Source: Halorarum halophilum
GTDB taxonomy: Archaea > Halobacteriota > Halobacteria > Halobacteriales > Haloferacaceae
Assembly (NCBI RefSeq): GCF_013401515.1
Contig: NZ_CP058529.1
Location: 1,488,001 to 1,552,000, forward strand
DNA: 64,000 nucleotides
Direction of reading: 5' to 3'
Positions 26,781 through 34,946 of this stretch are shown piece by piece. Position numbers and translations under genes: made by a program. The notes below the pieces were generated by a model. The model was not told the origin of the DNA. It ran no database searches and was given only the letters and a program-made list of their open reading frames with translations. How positions within the stretch are numbered: position 1 is the stretch's first letter; each line of letters opens with the position of its first letter.

Positions 26781-26788
26781 CTTTACGT
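26781..26788 (+). promoter_or_regulatory. TATA-like box of the cold-shock gene
   Basis: The sequence ctttacgt is centred about 30 nt before ATG 26814. A second AT-rich element (26803-26810) is too close to the start to serve a leaderless transcript. Confidence 0.35.
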
Positions 26789-26813
26789 GTACTCCCTGTA
26801 CGTTTATTTGCAA

Positions 26814-27008
26814 ATGGCGAACGGAAAAGTTGATTTCTTCAACGACACTGGCGGCTACGGTTTCATCTCCACCGAGGATGCTGACGACGACGTTTTCTTC
26901 CACATGGAGGATGTCGGCGGCGAGGATCTGACGGAAGGCACTGAGATCGAATTCGACATCGAACAGGCCCCCAAAGGCCCGCGCGCGACGAACGTCGTCC
27001 GCAACTAA
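26814..27008 (+). CDS. cspA: cold-shock domain protein
   Basis: The product is a 64-residue single OB-fold protein. The RNA-binding motifs are RNP1 GGYGFI at 13-18 and RNP2 VFFHM at 27-31. It starts MANGKVDFFND, typical of haloarchaeal CspA, and carries many acidic surface residues. It binds single-stranded nucleic acid and probably prevents RNA secondary structure during cold or growth transitions. Start ATG 26814 is fixed by the domain boundary. It is monocistronic. Confidence 0.93.
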   Translation: MANGKVDFFNDTGGYGFISTEDADDDVFFHMEDVGGEDLTEGTEIEFDIEQAPKGPRATNVVRN

Positions 27009-27218: not shown

Positions 27219-27695
27219 TCACACGCGAAGACGGTCGTCGGCGTCGTCGGTATCGTCGGGGTCCCCGGTCGTGGTGACGTCGTCCGAGGGGACGTGCTCG
27301 GGGAGACAGACGATGTTCTCCCTGCCGACCTGCAGGCGCACGACCTGGCCGTCGTTCTCCATCTCCTGGAGGATGCGACTGATCGTTGAGCTCGACAGGT
27401 CGGTGAACTCGGTGAACTCCTTCTGTGGGAGCGTGCCACCCTCGTCCTCGACGAGTCCGGTGAAGAACTCGTCCGGCTGAAGGTCCACCTCCGTGAGGAA
27501 GTGTCGTCGACTGGATAGCTCGCTGGGGTCGTAGTCCGGAAGGCCCCCGTCCGACTCGGCGTCCGTCGTTTCGGACGGGAGTTCCTCGCGTTCGGTCGGT
27601 TCCGCCGCGTGCTCGGAGGGCTCGGACCCCGTCTCCCCTAGTTTGGTAACGACTCGCCGAACACGCTGTCGAAGTTCGCTCAATTCGGGACCCAA
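27219..27695 (-). CDS. winged-helix protein with acidic N-terminal region
   Basis: The product has 158 residues from an unusual TTG start (27695), since no in-frame ATG or GTG precedes the domain. Residues 1-65 are acidic and low in complexity. Residues 73-130 form a winged helix: EFFTGLVEDEGGTLPQKEFTEF, then the recognition helix DLSSSTISRILQEMENDGQV and a wing ending GRENIVCLP. It resembles haloarchaeal MarR/IclR-like regulators and type I membrane-tethered variants, but no TM is present here. A palindrome about 40 nt upstream (27735-27748) could be its operator. Confidence 0.7.
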   Translation of the reverse strand: MGPELSELRQRVRRVVTKLGETGSEPSEHAAEPTEREELPSETTDAESDGGLPDYDPSELSSRRHFLTEVDLQPDEFFTGLVEDEGGTLPQKEFTEFTDLSSSTISRILQEMENDGQVVRLQVGRENIVCLPEHVPSDDVTTTGDPDDTDDADDRLRV

Positions 27696-28105
27696 CCTAC
27701 CGTCGTTTGGCGATATCCACCCTTGAACGTGCGTCCTAATCTATTAGGGATGCCGGCGTCGGCGCTTACGACGGGAAAGCGAACCCTACTACGTTGATGA
27801 CGGGGAACGCCCGAAGTGCTCGAAGAGGGGCGTGGTACTGGCATCGCACTCACGTTCGAACGAACCGGTGGATAAATCGAACACGGTGATGGAGTCGCTA
27901 CCCGTGGGTGGATGGAGTCCGAGTGACGTGCCCGAGTTCTTGTCCGTGCGTCTTCAGCGCGGGATCAAGGGGTAGATTCGGTCTTCGACTTTCTGGGAGA
28001 CGCCGGGAGGAGTCCGAGAGCAGCTGTGGTACACCCGCCAGTACCACTCCGGTTCGGGAGATTCGCTCTAGTTCCGGTAGCTGCGACCTCCTTCGGCCGA
28101 CGTCC
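27696..28105. other. intergenic region with a palindrome, no gene supported
   Basis: About 410 nt. Apart from the inverted repeat at 27735-27748 I see no coding signal or RNA gene. Confidence 0.45.
27735..27748. promoter_or_regulatory. palindrome cctaat-ct-attagg, candidate operator
   Basis: Perfect 6-bp arms around a 2-nt centre, 40-53 nt upstream of the winged-helix gene's TTG start, near where its promoter must be. It may be an autoregulatory site. Confidence 0.35.
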
Positions 28106-28387
28106 TCACGAGGTCGGGGGTTCTCTCACCGAGTCGTCCTCGACGAACACGTGACCATCGCTCGACACGGTGACCCAGCAACCGCTGTACTCGAAGGATA
28201 TCTCGCCGGCACACCTCATTCCGCCCTCCCCCGTAAAGAGCACGTCCAGCGCGTCCGGGTCGAGCACTTCGTACAGCGGGGGGTCGAGCGAGAGGGCCTC
28301 CGTCCCCTTGTGCCGCGCCACGCTTTCGACGACCGAGTAGCTCAGGGACTCCGCGTCCGCCTGCGTTTCCGTTGAGGGACCTTTCAC
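28106..28387 (-). CDS. stand-alone HalOD1 output-domain protein
   Basis: The product has 93 residues from a GTG start. LSYSVVESVARHKGTEALSL followed by PPLYEVLDPDALDVLF and ISFEYSGCWVTVSSDGHVFV is the complete HalOD1 (halobacterial output domain 1) pattern, a haloarchaea-specific domain often found at the end of receiver-containing proteins. Here it stands alone. A TATA-like tttata lies only about 12 nt before the GTG, so start and promoter fit is imperfect. It may transmit a signal from the nearby histidine kinases, which is inference from context. Confidence 0.82.
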   Translation of the reverse strand: MKGPSTETQADAESLSYSVVESVARHKGTEALSLDPPLYEVLDPDALDVLFTGEGGMRCAGEISFEYSGCWVTVSSDGHVFVEDDSVREPPTS

Positions 28388-28549
28388 TGCCCCTATAAAA
28401 GGTGCTTCGCGGGATAAGCGTCTCGCACGACCCGTGTCGATGCTGTTCGAACCCGTCGATCGACTCGAAACTCCGTCCCGGGAGCGGAGGTCCGCCAGGA
28501 CACGTCCGACGAACTGCCACTCGGTCGGTGGCGGTCGGGGCGCTCGTAC

Positions 28550-29479
28550 TCAGACGACGTGGTTCGCGAGCGTCTCGTTCGCGTCGAGTCGGCGGACGTT
28601 CTCGCGGACGAGGGCTCCGACGCGTCGGTAGTACTCGCGGTTGGCGGCGGCGGCGTGGGGGGTTACGATCACGTTCTCGCGCTCCCAGAACTCCGACCGG
28701 TCGGGCAGGGGCTCCGTCTCGAAGACGTCGAGAGCCGCCCCGGCGAGTTCGTCGTCGCGTAGCGCGTCCAGGAGCGCCGAGTCGTCGACGACGCCGCCGC
28801 GCGAGACGTTCAGGAGGTACGCGTCCTCGCGCATCACCCCGAACTCGTCGGCACCGATCGACCCCTCCGTCCGGTCCGTGAGCGGCACTGCGACCGCGAC
28901 GAACCGGACGTCCGCTATCGCCTCCTGTAGCTCGCCCGGGGTGTACACCCGCGAGATGTGTTCGACCGGGGTGGGCGTTCGCTTGACCCCGACGACGTCG
29001 ACCCCGAGCGCGTCGGCACGCCTGGCGATCCCCTGTCCGAGCGTTCCCAACCCGACGACGCACAGCGATTCGCCGGGCAAGGTGAACGGCGCATCCCACG
29101 GCGGGAACTGCCACTCGCGTCGGCGTTCGTTGTCCCGGTGGACGTGCAGGCGACGGGCGAACTGGAGCATGTACCCGACGACGGTCTCGCCGACGCTGTC
29201 CCCGTGTATCCCGGTGCTGCTCGTGAGCGCGATGCCCCGTCGCTCCAGCCGATCGAACGGGAAGCGATCGACCCCGGACTGGATCGAGTGGATCCAGTCG
29301 AGATCCGCGTCGAGGAACGACTCGTCGTAGGAGAACGTCACGAGCGCGTCGCACTCGTCGAGGTCGGCCGCCGTCTCGACGATCTCGACCGTCGGCTCGA
29401 CGTCCGAGAGCGCGTCGCGAAGGACGGACGGGGGGAACAACACGTCGACGGACGTGTGGACACCGATTCGGGAGAGCAT
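28550..29479 (-). CDS. D-isomer-specific 2-hydroxyacid dehydrogenase
   Basis: The product has 309 residues from ATG 29479, supported by a TATA-like tttatgtgg about 26 nt upstream. The NAD-binding motif is GLGTLG at 143-148, the substrate Arg is R227 in NVSRGGVVD, and the relay Glu lies near 256 in FETEPLP. The catalytic His is H275 in TPHAAA. The enzyme interconverts a 2-oxo acid and a D-2-hydroxy acid with NAD(P)H; the exact acid is unknown. A longer in-frame start exists, but its leader looks non-coding. It is monocistronic. Confidence 0.9.
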   Translation of the reverse strand: MLSRIGVHTSVDVLFPPSVLRDALSDVEPTVEIVETAADLDECDALVTFSYDESFLDADLDWIHSIQSGVDRFPFDRLERRGIALTSSTGIHGDSVGETVVGYMLQFARRLHVHRDNERRREWQFPPWDAPFTLPGESLCVVGLGTLGQGIARRADALGVDVVGVKRTPTPVEHISRVYTPGELQEAIADVRFVAVAVPLTDRTEGSIGADEFGVMREDAYLLNVSRGGVVDDSALLDALRDDELAGAALDVFETEPLPDRSEFWERENVIVTPHAAAANREYYRRVGALVRENVRRLDANETLANHVV

Positions 29480-29670
29480 GTGGCTACGTCCTGCCGCCCC
29501 CCACATAAACTGAACCCGTGGTTCCCGGATTGCCCCTCCCTGCGCCGGTCGGCCCACCGCTGGCGGCTCGAATCCGACAGCGAAGCGCCGGCGACACCGC
29601 GACCGCACGCCGCCGAACACGCGTATAGAACCGGAGCAGCCAGTTCCGGGTCACTTCGGAGTGACCGTTC

Positions 29671-30834
29671 TCACGTGGACGCGAGAGACTGGTCGAGGAG
29701 CGTCGGCTCTCGTTCGTGGCCGTCAGGGATGGTGAAGTAGAACGCGGCCCCCTCGCTGTGATCGGATTCGACCCACATCTTCCCGCCGTGACGCTCGACG
29801 ATCCGCTCGCAGAGCGCGAGCCCGATCCCGACCGTGTCGGTCTCCAGCTCCTCGTCACGGTGGAGTTGCTGGAACACCTCGAAGATACGACCGTGGTACT
29901 CGGGGGCGATTCCGATCCCGTCGTCGGTCACCGAGAACCGCCACGTGTCGTCCACACGTTCGGCGCTCACGTGTACCGTCGGGGACTCCTCCCCGCTGTG
30001 TTTCACGGCGTTCGAGAGGAGGTTCTGGAACACCAGTGCGAGCTGAGCGGAATCCCCGGAAACCGTCGGTAGCTCGTCGGCGGTGATCGTCGTCCCCGTC
30101 TCCTCGATCAACAGGCGGAGGTTCTCACGGATGTCCCGGAGGACAGCGCCGGTGTCCGTCGGCTCCAGGGGATCGCCGCTGTTGGTCACACGCGAGTACT
30201 CGAGGAGGCGCTCCACCATGACCCGCATCCGATCGGCACCGCCGACCGCGAACCCGATGAACTCGCGCGCCTCCTCGTCGAGTTCGTCCTCGTATCGGTT
30301 CTCAAGCAGCTGGAGGTAGCTCGACACCATCCGGAGGGGTTCCTGGAGGTCGTGGGAAGCGGCGTAGGCGAACTGTTCGAGGCGTTCGTTGGACTTTCGG
30401 AGCTGTTCCACCGTCTCGCGGAGGTCGCGCTCACGGGTCTTCGCGCGTGCGTTGTAGACGCCGGCGACGAACCCGGCGACGCTCCCGAGCGCCGTGAGGA
30501 TGAGCACGTTCGTGACGAGGTTCGTGAGATCGGCGGCCAGCGCGGTGAGGAGGAGGACCCCGAGGACGACCCCGATACCGCCGAGACACCACCTGGCGAC
30601 CGTGGGGAACAGCTCGGGGCGGATCTCGGTCCGGGGCAGGCGGTAGCAGCCGTAGAGGAGAACGAGACCGGGGCCGCCGACCAGAACGCCGACGACGAGA
30701 TGGAACGTGAGCGACGGGGTCACGGCTCCCGGTACGATCGGGTATCCGGCCGCAAGTACGACGTAGAACCCGCCGAGCGCCCCGACGAGACGTCGCCCGC
30801 CGACCGCAGGGAGAAGTCGATTCGACGGAGCCAT
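29671..30834 (-). CDS. membrane sensor histidine kinase
   Basis: The product has 387 residues from ATG 30834. Four TM helices lie within residues 18-128 with very short loops, so sensing is probably intramembrane or membrane-proximal. A coiled linker follows (129-155), then HisKA with phospho-acceptor H161 (ASHDLQEPL) and an HATPase_c domain with N box (QNLLSNAVKHS), G1 (DDGIGI) and G2 (GIGLAL) near the C-terminus. No PAS or receiver domain is present and no response regulator adjoins it. It diverges from a second, soluble histidine kinase at 31026. Confidence 0.93.
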   Translation of the reverse strand: MAPSNRLLPAVGGRRLVGALGGFYVVLAAGYPIVPGAVTPSLTFHLVVGVLVGGPGLVLLYGCYRLPRTEIRPELFPTVARWCLGGIGVVLGVLLLTALAADLTNLVTNVLILTALGSVAGFVAGVYNARAKTRERDLRETVEQLRKSNERLEQFAYAASHDLQEPLRMVSSYLQLLENRYEDELDEEAREFIGFAVGGADRMRVMVERLLEYSRVTNSGDPLEPTDTGAVLRDIRENLRLLIEETGTTITADELPTVSGDSAQLALVFQNLLSNAVKHSGEESPTVHVSAERVDDTWRFSVTDDGIGIAPEYHGRIFEVFQQLHRDEELETDTVGIGLALCERIVERHGGKMWVESDHSEGAAFYFTIPDGHEREPTLLDQSLAST

Positions 30835-31025
30835 TGCATCCACCTCGAATCCGATTACTATCAGGGTAGCGATGGAGTGTGAACGCCCGAACAGGTCGAA
30901 TCGTTCAGTGCCGGCAACCGGATCCCGAATTACCCCCGACGTTCCGATACGAACACGAGTACCGCACCTGCAAAAAATGAGGATATAAACATTCCCACCG
31001 CCTAGTCGAGGTAGGGTGATGCTAG

Positions 31026-32513
31026 TTGCGTTCGCTGAGTAAGTCCACGCTTCTCGACGACCTCGACGATCTGTTCTTCGTCTTCGACGAGAGGGGAACG
31101 TGCGTCGAGTGGAACCGGGCAACAGTGGACGTGACAGGCTACGCCGACGGGGAGCTCGCGGACATGACCCCCGACGAGTTCTTCGAGGGGGACGACGTCG
31201 ACAGGGTGCTGGACGCGGTCGCGGAGGTCCTCGAAACCGGCGGGGCGACAGTGGAGGCGAAGCTCGTCACCGTCGACGGCGAGCGGATCCCGTACGAGTT
31301 CAAGATCCGCCACCTCTCCCGCGACGACGGATCGGACGTGTTCGCCGGGGTCGGTCGTGACGTGACCGAACGTCACCGCCAGCGGAAGGAGATCGAGAAC
31401 CGGATGCGCGTGCTCCGCGAGATGTACGAGATCATCGCGGATCGCCATCGGCCGTTCACCGAACAGGTCGAGGCGCTCCTCGAGCTCGGACGAGCGGAAC
31501 TCGACACCGAGTACGGCTCGCTCTCCGAGATACGGGGCGACGACTACGTCTTCGAGGTGGTGGATGCGGACGGCGACGAGATCGAACCGGGCGACGTCGT
31601 GCCGCTGTCGGCGACGAACTGCGAGATCGCGGCCAGCAACGAACGGACGCTCGTCCTACGGGACGTCGCGAGGGACGCGCCGACGGAAACCGATCGACTC
31701 GGCTACACGGACTGGGGGGTCTCGTGTTACATCGGTGCGCCGGTCTTCGTCGACGAGGAGGTGTACGGGACGTTCTGTTTCTACGACACCGAGCCGCGGG
31801 ACGGCCAGTTCACGGAGTGGGAGGTGACGTTCGTCGAACTCATGAGCCGGTGGGTGAGTTACGAACTCCAACGCCAGCAGGCGAACGAACGGCTTCGACG
31901 CCAGAACGAGAAGCTGGAGCGGTTCGCGGCGATCGTGTCCCACGACCTCCGAAACCCGCTGAACGTCCTCGAGGGGCGGCTCGAGTTGGTCGAGGAGACG
32001 GGGGATCCGGTCCACTTCGAGCACTGCCACTGGGCCGTCGAACGGATGAACACGCTCATCGGCGACCTGCTGACGCTGGCCCGTGCAGGAGCGGTGATCG
32101 ACGAGACGGAGTTCGTCGAACTCGAATCGATCGTCAAACGGTGCTGGGGGAACGTCCCGGCGACCGAGGCCACGCTTCGAGTCGAGACCGAGCGGACGAT
32201 ACGGGCCGACGGGACGCGGCTCCAGCAACTGCTGGAGAACCTGATTCGAAACGCGGTCGAACACGTCGGTGACACGGTGACGGTCACGGTCGGCGACCTC
32301 CCCGACGGCTTCTACGTCGCCGACGATGGACCGGGGATCCCGCCCGAGGAACGGGAACGCGCGTTCGAGAGCGGTTACACCACCCTGTCGGACGGAACCG
32401 GGTTCGGGCTCCCCATCGTCCGGGAGATCGCCGAGGCCCACGGCTGGACCGTTCGACTCACCGACGGCCCCGAGGGCGGGGCACGCTTCGAGTTCACGGG
32501 GGTTTCGACGTAG
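31026..32513 (+). CDS. soluble PAS-GAF sensor histidine kinase
   Basis: The product has 495 residues from a TTG start at 31026; a leading ATG at 31019 is out of frame and stops at once. Domains in order: PAS (8-115, WNRATVDVTGYADGEL), a short coiled linker, GAF (130-280, YGSLSEIRGDDYVF, VSCYIGAPVFV), HisKA with H306 (IVSHDLRNPL), and HATPase_c with LLENLIRNAVEH and DDGPGI. There is no TM, so it senses a cytoplasmic signal such as redox state or a small ligand. It is divergent from the membrane kinase with no adjacent receiver protein. Confidence 0.92.
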   Translation: MRSLSKSTLLDDLDDLFFVFDERGTCVEWNRATVDVTGYADGELADMTPDEFFEGDDVDRVLDAVAEVLETGGATVEAKLVTVDGERIPYEFKIRHLSRDDGSDVFAGVGRDVTERHRQRKEIENRMRVLREMYEIIADRHRPFTEQVEALLELGRAELDTEYGSLSEIRGDDYVFEVVDADGDEIEPGDVVPLSATNCEIAASNERTLVLRDVARDAPTETDRLGYTDWGVSCYIGAPVFVDEEVYGTFCFYDTEPRDGQFTEWEVTFVELMSRWVSYELQRQQANERLRRQNEKLERFAAIVSHDLRNPLNVLEGRLELVEETGDPVHFEHCHWAVERMNTLIGDLLTLARAGAVIDETEFVELESIVKRCWGNVPATEATLRVETERTIRADGTRLQQLLENLIRNAVEHVGDTVTVTVGDLPDGFYVADDGPGIPPEERERAFESGYTTLSDGTGFGLPIVREIAEAHGWTVRLTDGPEGGARFEFTGVST

Positions 32514-32634
32514 GCGAGGCGATCCTAATAGCTCACCGCCGTTTGCGAGGGCTCGTTCGCTCCCGGCTCACTCGCCCTCGCTCCGATCACAGGCAGCTCG
32601 CCTGCAAGCTCGCCGCCCACCTTCGAGACCTCGC

Positions 32635-33495
32635 TCACTCCGTTCGCTCGCCATCGCTGCCCCCGAACGTGACGCCCTCCTGCGAATCGGCCTGCATCCG
32701 ACGCAGCGCCGCGGCGGCCTGGCTCGCGTCGTAGCCGAAGAACACCTCGTTCGCGTACGCCTCGGCGACCTCTGTCGCGTGGATCAGGCTGTCGATGTCG
32801 ACGTTGACGGCGTACAGTTCGACCGAGAACGGCGTGTCGAGCCCGTCCAGCCGGCTCACGAACCCCTTGGCGATGGTCTCCAGCCAGTACGTCGTCCCGT
32901 AGTGGGTGTCGTACAGCGGGACGACGAACTCGTCGACGTGCTCGGCGAGCGCGTCGACGTCGAGGCCGGCGCGCTCGTGGAGGTGCCCCGGGTACGGGTC
33001 GGGGTACAGCGTGAGGTACGCGCGACCAGGGATCCGCTCGGCCGCCTCGGCGACGAAGTCGGTGATGACCTCCGCGCGCCACTCGGCCCAGTCGTCGTAG
33101 TCGCTGGCGTCGAACAGTTCGGTACAGCGATCGCACCGGCAGTACCCCTGGCGCGGGAACCCCACGTCGTCGAGGCGGACGTCGCCGTTCACGTCGGCGC
33201 AGTCCTCGACGATCTCGAGGAGGCCGCGGCGGTAGTCCTCGTGGGTCGGACAGACGTACGCCCAGTCGAAGTACGTGCGGTCGCGGGTCGCGGGGGCGCC
33301 CGCCTCGTCGACCGGGACGAGTTCGGGGTTTGACTCGGCGGCCGCGTTGTCGCCGAAGCAGGACACCATGTTCACCGCGTTCTCCAGCGGTTCGGCCGAG
33401 CGCCCGGTGACGTCCTTCACCTCGTAGAAGCCGCGGTCGAACTCCGGCCAGGCGACCTCCTCGGCGTTCCGTGTGACGACCCCGTAGTCGGTCAT
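32635..33495 (-). CDS. conserved haloarchaeal protein, possibly a glycoside-hydrolase-like TIM barrel
   Basis: The product has 286 residues and no signal or TM. It carries an RTYFDWAYVCPTHEDYRRGL segment, VRLDDVGFPRQGYCRCDRC with a CxCxxC cluster, and FVVPLYDTHYGTTYW. The DD and YD acidic pairs following beta-strand-like stretches recall DUF-class TIM barrels related to glycoside hydrolases. The cysteines could hold a metal. I do not recognise a named family with certainty. It is convergent with the PAS-GAF kinase, and the 120-nt spacer is a low-complexity ctcgctc-rich tract. Confidence 0.6.
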   Translation of the reverse strand: MTDYGVVTRNAEEVAWPEFDRGFYEVKDVTGRSAEPLENAVNMVSCFGDNAAAESNPELVPVDEAGAPATRDRTYFDWAYVCPTHEDYRRGLLEIVEDCADVNGDVRLDDVGFPRQGYCRCDRCTELFDASDYDDWAEWRAEVITDFVAEAAERIPGRAYLTLYPDPYPGHLHERAGLDVDALAEHVDEFVVPLYDTHYGTTYWLETIAKGFVSRLDGLDTPFSVELYAVNVDIDSLIHATEVAEAYANEVFFGYDASQAAAALRRMQADSQEGVTFGGSDGERTE

Positions 33496-33810
33496 TGCAC
33501 GGGGATAGACCGGGTGTGTGGGTAAGTCTCTCGGAAGATCCTGTTGGAATCCTCTCGTTCAGACACAACACAGCGTGACTATTCGGGTCGTAATCGGAGA
33601 CTCAGAACAGGTTCTTGAACTCCAGGAACCCCACCGAGCGAACTACGGTCGGAGTCACATTCTCGAATTCCACATAGTTCATTAGTGGGTCTACGTCGCA
33701 TCCAGTCACCGATCGGTGACGGCTGCCACGTGAAGGGGCAAGAGCTCATCGGTGCGATAGACGGATTCCCGACATGGCTCCTAAGGTTGTTCTGGACCAG
33801 CCTCGGCCGC
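33496..33810. other. intergenic region, only a tiny possible ORF
   Basis: Apart from the 26-codon frame at 33602-33682, nothing recognisable is seen in this 315-nt spacer. Confidence 0.4.
33602..33682 (-). CDS. possible 26-residue microprotein
   Basis: ATG 33682 opens 26 codons (MNYVEFENVT... GFLEFKNLF), amphipathic and rich in E, F and N, ending TGA 33602. No TATA box is evident, so it may instead be the surviving tail of a lost gene. It occupies the otherwise empty spacer before the HalOD1/winged-helix pair. Confidence 0.3.
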   Translation of the reverse strand: MNYVEFENVTPTVVRSVGFLEFKNLF

Positions 33811-34104
33811 CTATTCGGTTAGTCGGTCCGTGACGCGAATCTCGACCCCACCATCCCCCCAAAGTTCGACCTCGACCCCGTCAGTTCTGAAATTCACGGT
33901 CGTTCTCGGTCGTGCATCGTGGCGGAACAACGAATTGAGTGCGTCGGGGTCGATATCCTCGTAGAGGACGAAGTCGGTTCGCTGAAGGTTGTCCCTCTTG
34001 CAGTCCTCGATGGCGTCGAGGACCGCCTCGGTCAACGTCCGGTCCTGGTCCGGAGTGTAGGAGGCTTGCACCGCGTTCGCTGGTTCGTGCTCGTTCTGCG
34101 CCAT
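33811..34104 (-). CDS. stand-alone HalOD1 output-domain protein (second copy)
   Basis: The product has 97 residues. TLTEAVLDAIEDCKRDNLQR, then LYEDIDPDALNSLFRHDARPRT and VNFRTDGVEVELWGDGGVEIRV, matches HalOD1 from end to end. It is only distantly similar to the copy at 28106. It begins 3 nt after the stop of the winged-helix gene at 34108, so the two form a two-gene operon coupling an output domain to a DNA-binding protein. Confidence 0.82.
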   Translation of the reverse strand: MAQNEHEPANAVQASYTPDQDRTLTEAVLDAIEDCKRDNLQRTDFVLYEDIDPDALNSLFRHDARPRTTVNFRTDGVEVELWGDGGVEIRVTDRLTE

Positions 34105-34107
34105 AAG

Positions 34108-34569
34108 CTACTCCCACCCCCATATGATTGCGGAGTTGAAGTCGAAGAGGCGTTCCTGTATGTGTTCGAGCCGCGAGTGACCGTGATACCGCACCGTTTT
34201 GGTCCGTTCATCGTAGTCGACGAGTCCCACGGCTGCCAGTTTGGGGAGTGCGATGTGGTGGAATCGTATCGAAGCCCGAGGTTCGCCGTCGTTGTCTCGT
34301 CGGGCGGTCGCAACGGCGTCACCCGAATCAAGCTCCGCGGACGCGTCTCTGAAGTACGAGAGGGCGAAACGACACATCTCTCCCAACGTATTGGCGAAGT
34401 GCGGGGCTTCCCCCACAACGTTGCTGTCTCTGTCCCAACTGACCACACCTTCCTCCTCTAATTCTGAGAGGGTTCTGTGATTTTGTTTGAGACGTGGAAT
34501 TTCCACCTCTTCAGTGGCAGAGAGTGGATCCTCACGTCGGTCGTCTTCGGACCGTTTGCTAACACTCAT
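34108..34569 (-). CDS. DUF7344-like winged-helix protein with altered N-terminal half
   Basis: The product has 153 residues. The C-terminal part FHHIALPKLAAVGLVDYDERTKTVRYHG is the DUF7344 recognition-helix and wing pattern. The first half instead begins IPRLKQNHRTLSELEEEGVVSWDRDSN, which itself looks like the second half of another winged helix. The protein therefore may derive from a tandem two-domain regulator that lost part of each domain. It is the first gene of an operon with HalOD1. Regulatory function is presumed; targets are unknown. Confidence 0.6.
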   Translation of the reverse strand: MSVSKRSEDDRREDPLSATEEVEIPRLKQNHRTLSELEEEGVVSWDRDSNVVGEAPHFANTLGEMCRFALSYFRDASAELDSGDAVATARRDNDGEPRASIRFHHIALPKLAAVGLVDYDERTKTVRYHGHSRLEHIQERLFDFNSAIIWGWE

Positions 34570-34946
34570 TGACTGTATAAGGGGTCGAACACCGATGTAG
34601 CCCCCATATTTTCACAGAGAGTAGTTGTGTGACGAACTGAGTGACACTGTAGTCCCTGCCCACTAAGCAGGTTCTTCTAAGCGGCTGTTTCGCCTCTGCT
34701 AGGCTGAAACGAACGACGACAGTCTACTGCACACATCCGCTGTATTCAGTAAACGACGTTTGGCAGATTCCGGAGGGGTCGATAGTCGCACCGAGAATCG
34801 TAGTACCTGTATCGACCGCAACCGGGCCAGGTTGTATCACTTCCTGGGGATTTCAACGAAGCCCCTCGGAAGAATACCGGTCGGGAAGGGATGGCAGGGT
34901 GGTCGGCGAGCGATCCGGGGCGGGGGTGCCGCGTCGACGAACGACG
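34570..34946. other. intergenic region, no gene supported
   Basis: About 380 nt. A weak hairpin (gtttcgcc...ggctgaaac near 34687-34710) is present. No coding bias or RNA cloverleaf is seen. Confidence 0.45.

Follow-up and report, generated by a model that had tools for sequence, protein, structure and literature searches.

The HalOD1 gene at 33811 in Halorarum halophilum is best read as the second gene of a DUF7344-HalOD1 operon beside probable bystander kinases

The functional unit at 33811-34569 is best read, from its gene arrangement, as a two-gene operon composed of a DUF7344 gene followed by the gene of a small lone HalOD1 protein (HalOD1 b). Positions are those of the window, the whole 64-kb stretch of DNA analysed here. 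In the reading that we somewhat favour, HalOD1 would be the co-regulator of a winged-helix transcription factor encoded in the same operon, and the two histidine kinases nearby would be bystanders. Pfam searches confirmed the gene list of the initial annotation, in which two kinases and two winged-helix-type genes accompany two lone HalOD1 proteins and a receiver is lacking. Both kinases (29671 and 31026), which are divergent on opposite strands, have intact H, N, and G boxes. A genome-wide receiver search gave 22 matches, none of them between C1:1488001 and 1552000; therefore, the lack of a receiver holds for the entire window. The gene set as initially drawn left out the dehydrogenase gene (28550) and the gene of the 286-aa protein (32635), both of which interrupt it.

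Table 1 Features of the neighbourhood in the 64-kb window.
Feature	Position	Strand	Basis
DUF7343 (PF24034), MarR-like winged-helix-type gene	27219-27683 (to 27695 in the Pfam search)	-	Pfam 56.3 bits; weak MarR similarity
HalOD1 a, 93 aa	28106-28387	-	Pfam PF18545, 79 bits (cut-off 26.3)
Haloarchaeal D-2-hydroxyacid dehydrogenase; splits the set	28550-29479	-	NF041369, 469 bits (cut-off 400)
Membrane histidine kinase, HisKA_4TM/HisKA/HATPase_c; judged a bystander	29671-30834	-	Pfam
PAS-GAF-HisKA-HATPase_c kinase; judged a bystander	31026-32513	+	Pfam
286-aa protein; splits the set	32635-33495	-	Weak DUF4015 match, 18.9 bits (below cut-off 27)
HalOD1 b, 97 aa, second gene of the pair	33811-34104	-	Pfam PF18545, 48 bits (cut-off 26.3)
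DUF7344 (PF24035) winged-helix-type gene, 153 aa, first gene of the pair	34108-34569	-	45.4 bits (cut-off 27.8)
Junction: DUF7344 TAG stop, CTT codon, HalOD1 b ATG, same frame	34105-34110	-	Direct sequence reading
DUF7344 gene 5' end and ~120 bp upstream of ATG	34397-34691	-	76% DNA identity to half-DUF7344 locus

DUF7344 and HalOD1 b are neighbours on one strand and in one frame, with an in-frame stop and a single codon between them, and the read-through of this junction aligns with a natural DUF7344-HalOD1 fusion. At its start, the DUF7344 gene carries about 60 codons fused on from a 'half-DUF7344' gene, whose counterpart at C1:1210975-1211268 shares 76% DNA identity with 34397-34691 (tblastn and blastn). 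DUF7344 is a putative winged helix, as judged from its sequence character and from the genes that accompany it. Its predicted model (pLDDT 46) is too poor to use as fold evidence, and a search for solved structures found no relative in the PDB. The model of HalOD1 b, made with five sequences, had a pLDDT of 69 and consists of three helices followed by three strands; comparison with the PDB gave neither a fold match at an E-value of 0.001 nor a convincing sequence match. No relatives were found among viral contigs or in the PHROGs search, and the genome contig scan gave two relatives only.

The pair recurs in other genomes, where gene calls were made with a custom script. HalOD1 b shows 67-73% identity to the HalOD1 proteins of four paired loci and 74% identity to a plasmid copy of Natronosalvus rutilus. 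DUF7344-HalOD1 operons were found at L084, L085, L086, L088, and L098, where the two genes either overlap by 4 bp or lie 3 bp apart, and the order DUF7344 then HalOD1 is kept across genera and families. At L103, DUF7344 (53.2 bits) and HalOD1 (33.8 bits) are naturally fused in a single 210-aa frame, which lies behind an HTH_10/BAT gene; a second fused frame, in G154, retains DUF7344 in part only. These fusions occur in one genus only (2 of 391 genomes). The occurrence of the two-gene unit together with a single-protein form elsewhere suggests that HalOD1 probably serves a gene switch rather than the nearby kinases. Among 32 class-b-like HalOD1 loci outside the H. halophilum genome (L118, where the HalOD1 gene was not called, being left out), DUF7344 was present within 700 bp in 10, and any tested HTH type within the same distance in 18 and absent in 14. 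Genes of Bat-type regulators (BAT + HTH_10) often immediately precede the DUF7344-HalOD1 pair or an unpaired HalOD1 gene. However, these regulators are separate proteins, and a sequence search at the window locus found no convincing HTH_10/BAT remnant near the pair.

The small size and pairing of these genes, the existence of plasmid copies, the patchy distribution of the unit (28 of 391 genomes at an E-value of 1e-17), and its G+C content of 0.57-0.60 inside a window of 0.67 are consistent with a mobile addiction-type pair, that is, a selfish toxin-antitoxin-like cassette or a plasmid or virus regulator spread by plasmids. We consider this quite unlikely, since the HTH partner family varies (DUF7344, HTH_10, Lrp, and PadR), unlike that of a fixed pair, and domain searches of the window genes gave no toxin-like domain or family match. 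Furthermore, in the sections consulted of the report on ddfA (HVO_2176), this HalOD1 gene is deletable in Haloferax and its deletion has a shape phenotype (PMC10869688).

The H. halophilum genome contains 34 HalOD1 copies, 33 of which were called as small, receiver-free genes, and lone HalOD1 proteins are carried by nearly all haloarchaea according to the available part of Galperin et al. 2018 (PMC5847659). The statement in the initial annotation that HalOD1 is normally an output module is therefore misleading. DUF7344 was found within 500 bp of 10 of the 34 copies compared with 0.7 expected, and none of 1000 shifts, made with approximate contig extents, reached 10. In relatives, it was found within 600 bp of 15 of 75 HalOD1 genes (0.64 expected). 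Sixty immediate neighbours of HalOD1, excluding gene calls scoring below 7, included nine DUF7344, five HTH_10/BAT, and four AsnC-type genes. None of these three types appeared in the control tally, which covered 97 genes and listed the first 25 families and may thus miss a family with a single control gene; provided that the controls contain none, the Fisher p values are 1e-4, 0.007, and 0.02, respectively. These controls came from the HalOD1 loci themselves, and 97 of the 98 listed control genes were aligned. With the BAT and Lrp profiles, each derived, like the kinase profiles, from 4 to 8 sequences, a direct DUF7344, HTH_10/BAT, or Lrp-type neighbour was observed for 17 of the 34 copies versus 13 of 89 controls from shared loci; the other 17, including HalOD1 a, had no direct neighbour from these three families. 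These results indicate that HalOD1 is tied to DNA-binding genes, and not clearly to kinases, in this genome.

The neighbours of the controls, together with the high duplication and plasmid richness of both families, would also fit the absence of any functional link, HalOD1 and HTH genes being accessory genes that gather in shared variable regions. This explanation appears improbable, since conserved gene order and spacing in different families, the identity level of the paired HalOD1 proteins, and the natural fusion are unexpected from shared location alone.

The proximity of kinases was evaluated in the same genome. A HATPase domain was located within 2 kb of 4 of the 34 HalOD1 genes (2.1 expected; not significant) and within 5 kb of 10 (4.5 expected; p about 0.02), and kinase-HalOD1 co-occurrence is near chance level. 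No receiver was present within 5 kb of 29 of the 42 HATPase domains, and 9 of the 22 receiver matches had no HATPase domain within 5 kb on their contig. Lone HalOD1 genes and kinases without a nearby receiver are thus normal for this genome. Outside it, no HalOD1 gene was found beside homologues of the two kinases at 38 loci (approximately 1.5 kb on each side), and all five closest homologous DUF7344-HalOD1 loci were free of kinases within approximately 9 kb. At 9 of 19 loci of the membrane kinase outside this genome, a stand-alone receiver-like gene (judged by eye, two of the nine being checked with Pfam) was located beside the kinase, suggesting that use of a receiver is common for this kinase type. 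We take such receivers beside histidine kinases to be Rcp1-like. The window membrane kinase is homologous to kinases of these pairs, but the adjacent receiver is absent in the window.

These data bear on a two-component reading, in which HalOD1 would be the target of one or both kinases, either immediately or via an unlinked receiver, and would in turn act on the winged-helix protein. Some observations fit it: a kinase lies within 1.5 kb of three of this genome's four class-b HalOD1 copies, as noticed post hoc; one HalOD1 gene of this genome is 466 bp from a receiver; at L097 of Natronococcus pandeyae, HalOD1 is 275 bp from a 1180-aa kinase with a receiver-like gene nearby; and HalOD1-receiver fusions are described in the consulted part of PMC5847659. 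However, two of the three class-b copies are paralogues that share a contig and have kinases of different types next to them. The pattern was not repeated outside this genome: the 32 class-b-like loci had a kinase in 1 (within 2 kb) and 3 (within 5 kb), about as predicted by 42 HATPase domains per 4.28 Mb if the kinase density of this genome is assumed for the others. With the 2-kb result and the 38 homologue loci also against it, we regard this reading as unlikely, and a kinase-HalOD1 circuit is unsupported by own-genome proximity, the class-b-like loci, or the kinase-homologue loci. The phosphotransfer-free circuit initially proposed holds in that HalOD1 (33811) belongs with the winged-helix gene (34108) in a link that needs no receiver, but membership of the kinases in the set is unsupported. 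The conserved clustering suggested as a check was found for the DUF7344-HalOD1 pair across genera, but not for kinases with HalOD1.

HalOD1 a scored 71.2 bits against the DdfA model (NCBIfam NF053557), just above the cut-off of 70, while HalOD1 b, at 34.6 bits, was under it and in this differs from DdfA, the Haloferax volcanii HalOD1 protein whose deletion has a regulatory phenotype. Since the model is not specific and also accepts 6 of 33 HalOD1 proteins of this genome, the match assigns no shape function here, and DdfA identity was not used as a function for HalOD1 a. According to the part of PMC10869688 consulted, ddfA is rarely clustered with rdfA and sph3 outside H. volcanii. No relative of HalOD1 a was found in the phage collection. 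Its partner is probably another HTH protein, for example, an Lrp-type protein as in several homologues, or DUF7343. The DUF7343 gene (27219) lies about 420 bp beyond HalOD1 a.

In the co-regulator reading, HalOD1 b would bind its DUF7344 partner and set its DNA-binding or oligomeric state, which would make the pair a split one-component regulator for which phosphotransfer is not obligatory. The receiver-HalOD1 proteins found elsewhere may represent a version whose input comes from the receiver. The two kinases would owe their position here to rearrangement, and their phosphorylation targets are probably unlinked receivers. More tentatively, rather than being an output domain, HalOD1 could possibly be a detachable co-regulator plugged into unrelated HTH families (DUF7344, HTH_10/BAT, Lrp, and PadR), the many pairs per genome being a split one-component system and the receiver-HalOD1 fusions its phosphorylation-gated branch.

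The stand-alone HalOD1 (PF18545) of Galperin et al. has the same domain in the same small, lone, multicopy form; in the part of that paper available, HalOD1 is viewed as an output domain linked to receivers and possibly metal-binding, and nothing is said of its being paired with, or fused to, DUF7344 or other HTH proteins (PMC5847659). Lone HalOD1 is thus already published, whereas no printed report of HalOD1-DUF7344 pairing or fusion, and no paper on DUF7344, was found in a search with preprints and most subscription journals outside its scope. HalOD1 proteins exceeded 2,000 by 2017 (PMC5847659, as consulted in part); the lone forms number in the thousands, and in the partially consulted literature found, a role is assigned only for one cell-shape gene. 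A recurrent and sometimes fused DNA-binding partner would give lone HalOD1 a direct, testable role. Haloarchaea have few DNA-binding response regulators, and HalOD1-HTH pairing, if true, would help explain how haloarchaeal signals are connected to promoters.

The Halorarum halophilum genome comprises 4.28 Mb in four contigs, with the window at C1:1488001-1552000. The initial annotation proposed that two kinases, two lone HalOD1 proteins and winged-helix proteins could form a signalling circuit here that lacks a receiver. All gene types it named were confirmed by Pfam, which added a dehydrogenase gene and a gene of unknown function lying among them. No receiver domain was found within the 64-kb window, as had been claimed, and the catalytic boxes are intact in both kinases.

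Genes in the window
Feature	Position	Strand	Remark
Cold-shock domain protein	26787-27008		just downstream of DUF7343 gene
DUF7343 (MarR-like)	27219-27683	-	
HalOD1 a	28106-28387	-	
D-2-hydroxyacid dehydrogenase	28550-29479		additional gene
Membrane histidine kinase	29671-30834	-	
PAS-GAF histidine kinase	31026-32513	+	
Unknown protein	32635-33495		additional gene, 286 aa
HalOD1 b	33811-34104	-	97 aa
DUF7344 (winged-helix type)	34108-34569	-	

This gene combination is not unusual. The genome has 34 HalOD1, 22 receiver and 42 HATPase_c matches, the last family also including non-kinase ATPases, and for only 13 of these 42 is a receiver encoded within 5 kb. Lone HalOD1 proteins occur in nearly all haloarchaea in up to 49 copies, according to PMC5847659. 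HATPase domains lie within 2 kb of 4/34 HalOD1 genes (2.1 expected) and within 5 kb of 10/34 (4.5 expected); these counts show no clear enrichment of HalOD1 around kinases in this genome.

A search for homologues of each window kinase covered 119 genomes of the family. HalOD1 was beside the kinase homologue in none of the 38 loci from other genomes (19 per kinase), and a DUF7344 gene in one (L141). A receiver-like gene adjoins the membrane kinase in 9 of its 19 loci, of which two were verified. In the host genome, 9 of the 22 receiver matches have no HATPase domain within 5 kb on their contig; therefore, remote partners exist. Among 32 loci of other genomes with a HalOD1 resembling HalOD1 b (class-b), a kinase lies within 2 kb in one and within 5 kb in three. 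Against a bystander role, three of the four class-b HalOD1 genes of the host have a kinase within 1.5 kb, and on a Natronococcus pandeyae contig HalOD1 is 275 bp from a 1180-aa kinase, the contig carrying in addition another kinase and a receiver-like gene. Nevertheless, the window kinases look like bystanders, and the proposed circuit is therefore mostly wrong.

The host genome has 39 DUF7344 matches, and DUF7344 is within 500 bp of 10/34 HalOD1 genes versus 0.7 expected. In 11 related genomes, it is within 600 bp of 15/75 HalOD1 genes (one of the 75 under the family cut-off) versus 0.64 expected; seven of these pairs are convergent, eight same-strand and none divergent. A Pfam scan of 60 immediate HalOD1 neighbours returned nine DUF7344, five HTH_10/BAT and four AsnC-type genes, three types that do not occur among the 25 listed families of a control set of 97 genes. 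With custom profiles, 17/34 HalOD1 genes directly neighboured DUF7344, HTH_10/BAT or AsnC/Lrp families, versus 13/89 control genes from the same loci; the other 17, including HalOD1 a, had no direct neighbour of these three families.

Other arrangements were also seen. Six loci (L105-L109 and L119) have HalOD1 and a 90-aa PadR-type gene in convergent orientation, PadR having been checked in one of them. An Lrp-type gene, HalOD1 and a cysteine-containing protein beginning right after it are consecutive in L023 (2436-3539) and L034 (2449-3549); in L029 (3023-3571) such a protein immediately follows HalOD1 with no Lrp gene called (78-93 aa in the three loci). Near-identical cysteine-rich, zinc-ribbon-like proteins of 57-61 aa adjoin HalOD1 genes in L010 (3332-3505) and L021 (4647-4832), and an apparently membrane-bound 249-aa protein carries HalOD1 at its end in L032 (2560-3309). 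In L078 (1004-2388), Lrp-type, HalOD1 and receiver-like genes are consecutive on the same strand, a possible link between HalOD1 pairs and two-component input.

In the window, the TAG stop of DUF7344 is followed by one codon and then the HalOD1 b start in the same frame. Among the closest homologues of the DUF7344 protein, sought in 242 genomes, four loci of other genera (L045-L048) have the homologue followed by a 97-aa HalOD1 with 67-73% identity to HalOD1 b. No kinase was found within about 9 kb on each side of these and a fifth locus (together L084-L088), and in a further pair locus, L098, a kinase lies at a distance of 2.5 kb. L084, L085, L086 and L088 carry an HTH_10/BAT gene or a fragment of one directly upstream of the pair, in the same orientation. 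The two genes are separated by 3 bp in L084, L085, L088 and L098 and overlap by 4 bp in L086. Class-b-type HalOD1 is also encoded on plasmids of Natronosalvus rutilus and Natrinema zhouii, in the latter in the order AsnC-HalOD1-DUF7344-HalOD1, and in Haladaptatus salinisoli a HalOD1 gene faces a DUF7344 gene. A Haladaptatus caseinilyticus plasmid carries a cluster of four HalOD1 genes and one DUF7344 gene (L168 2404-4768).

In genome G297 (L103), immediately behind an HTH_10/BAT gene, a single 210-aa open frame contains DUF7344 (53.2 bits) together with HalOD1 (33.8 bits). The two are also fused in G154, which belongs to the same genus, but there DUF7344 is matched in part only. The fusion as query matched 11 of 391 genomes. 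Outside these two, matches spanning both parts, including that of the window, carry 1-2 stop codons, and the remainder cover the HalOD1 portion alone. Therefore, a stop codon is nearly all that separates the two-gene form from the one-gene form. This is the strongest sign that DUF7344 and HalOD1 function jointly; their adjacency, order, frame and fusion are established at the sequence level.

A window segment (34397-34691) comprising the 5′ part of the DUF7344 gene and about 120 bp before it shows 76% DNA identity to C1:1210975-1211268 of the same genome, a 'half-DUF7344' locus (L093 4976-5269). Judged by this comparison, the gene is a chimera with a borrowed 5′ end. A second shared element lies near both loci (64 bp, window 34734-34797; 81% identical to L093 6786-6849). 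Relatives of the DUF7344 half occur as genes of about 66-72 aa. Tiny 'half-DUF7344' genes (~70 aa) are present at L056 1495-1713, L064 1468-1680, L065 1474-1677 and L070 1480-1686, that of L064 overlapping a HalOD1 gene start on the same strand. A search at the window pair for a remnant of an upstream HTH_10/BAT gene found none, and the G+C contents of the pair are low (0.565 and 0.599 versus 0.666). We infer that the pair may be a mobile operon from which the first gene was lost and which acquired a new 5′ end.

In Haloferax volcanii, the HalOD1 gene ddfA is described as required for disk cells (PMC10869688), and another HalOD1 gene as up ten-fold in low salt (PMC12852389); ddfA was the only HalOD1 gene for which a phenotype was found in the literature searched. 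The NCBIfam 'equivalog' DdfA model NF053557 accepts HalOD1 a (28106-28387) by a narrow margin; it accepts 6 of 33 HalOD1 paralogues of the host genome and therefore over-assigns. The best reading is that HalOD1 would bind its HTH partner and modulate it. The useful outcome is the pairing of HalOD1 with HTH proteins, together with its natural fusion.
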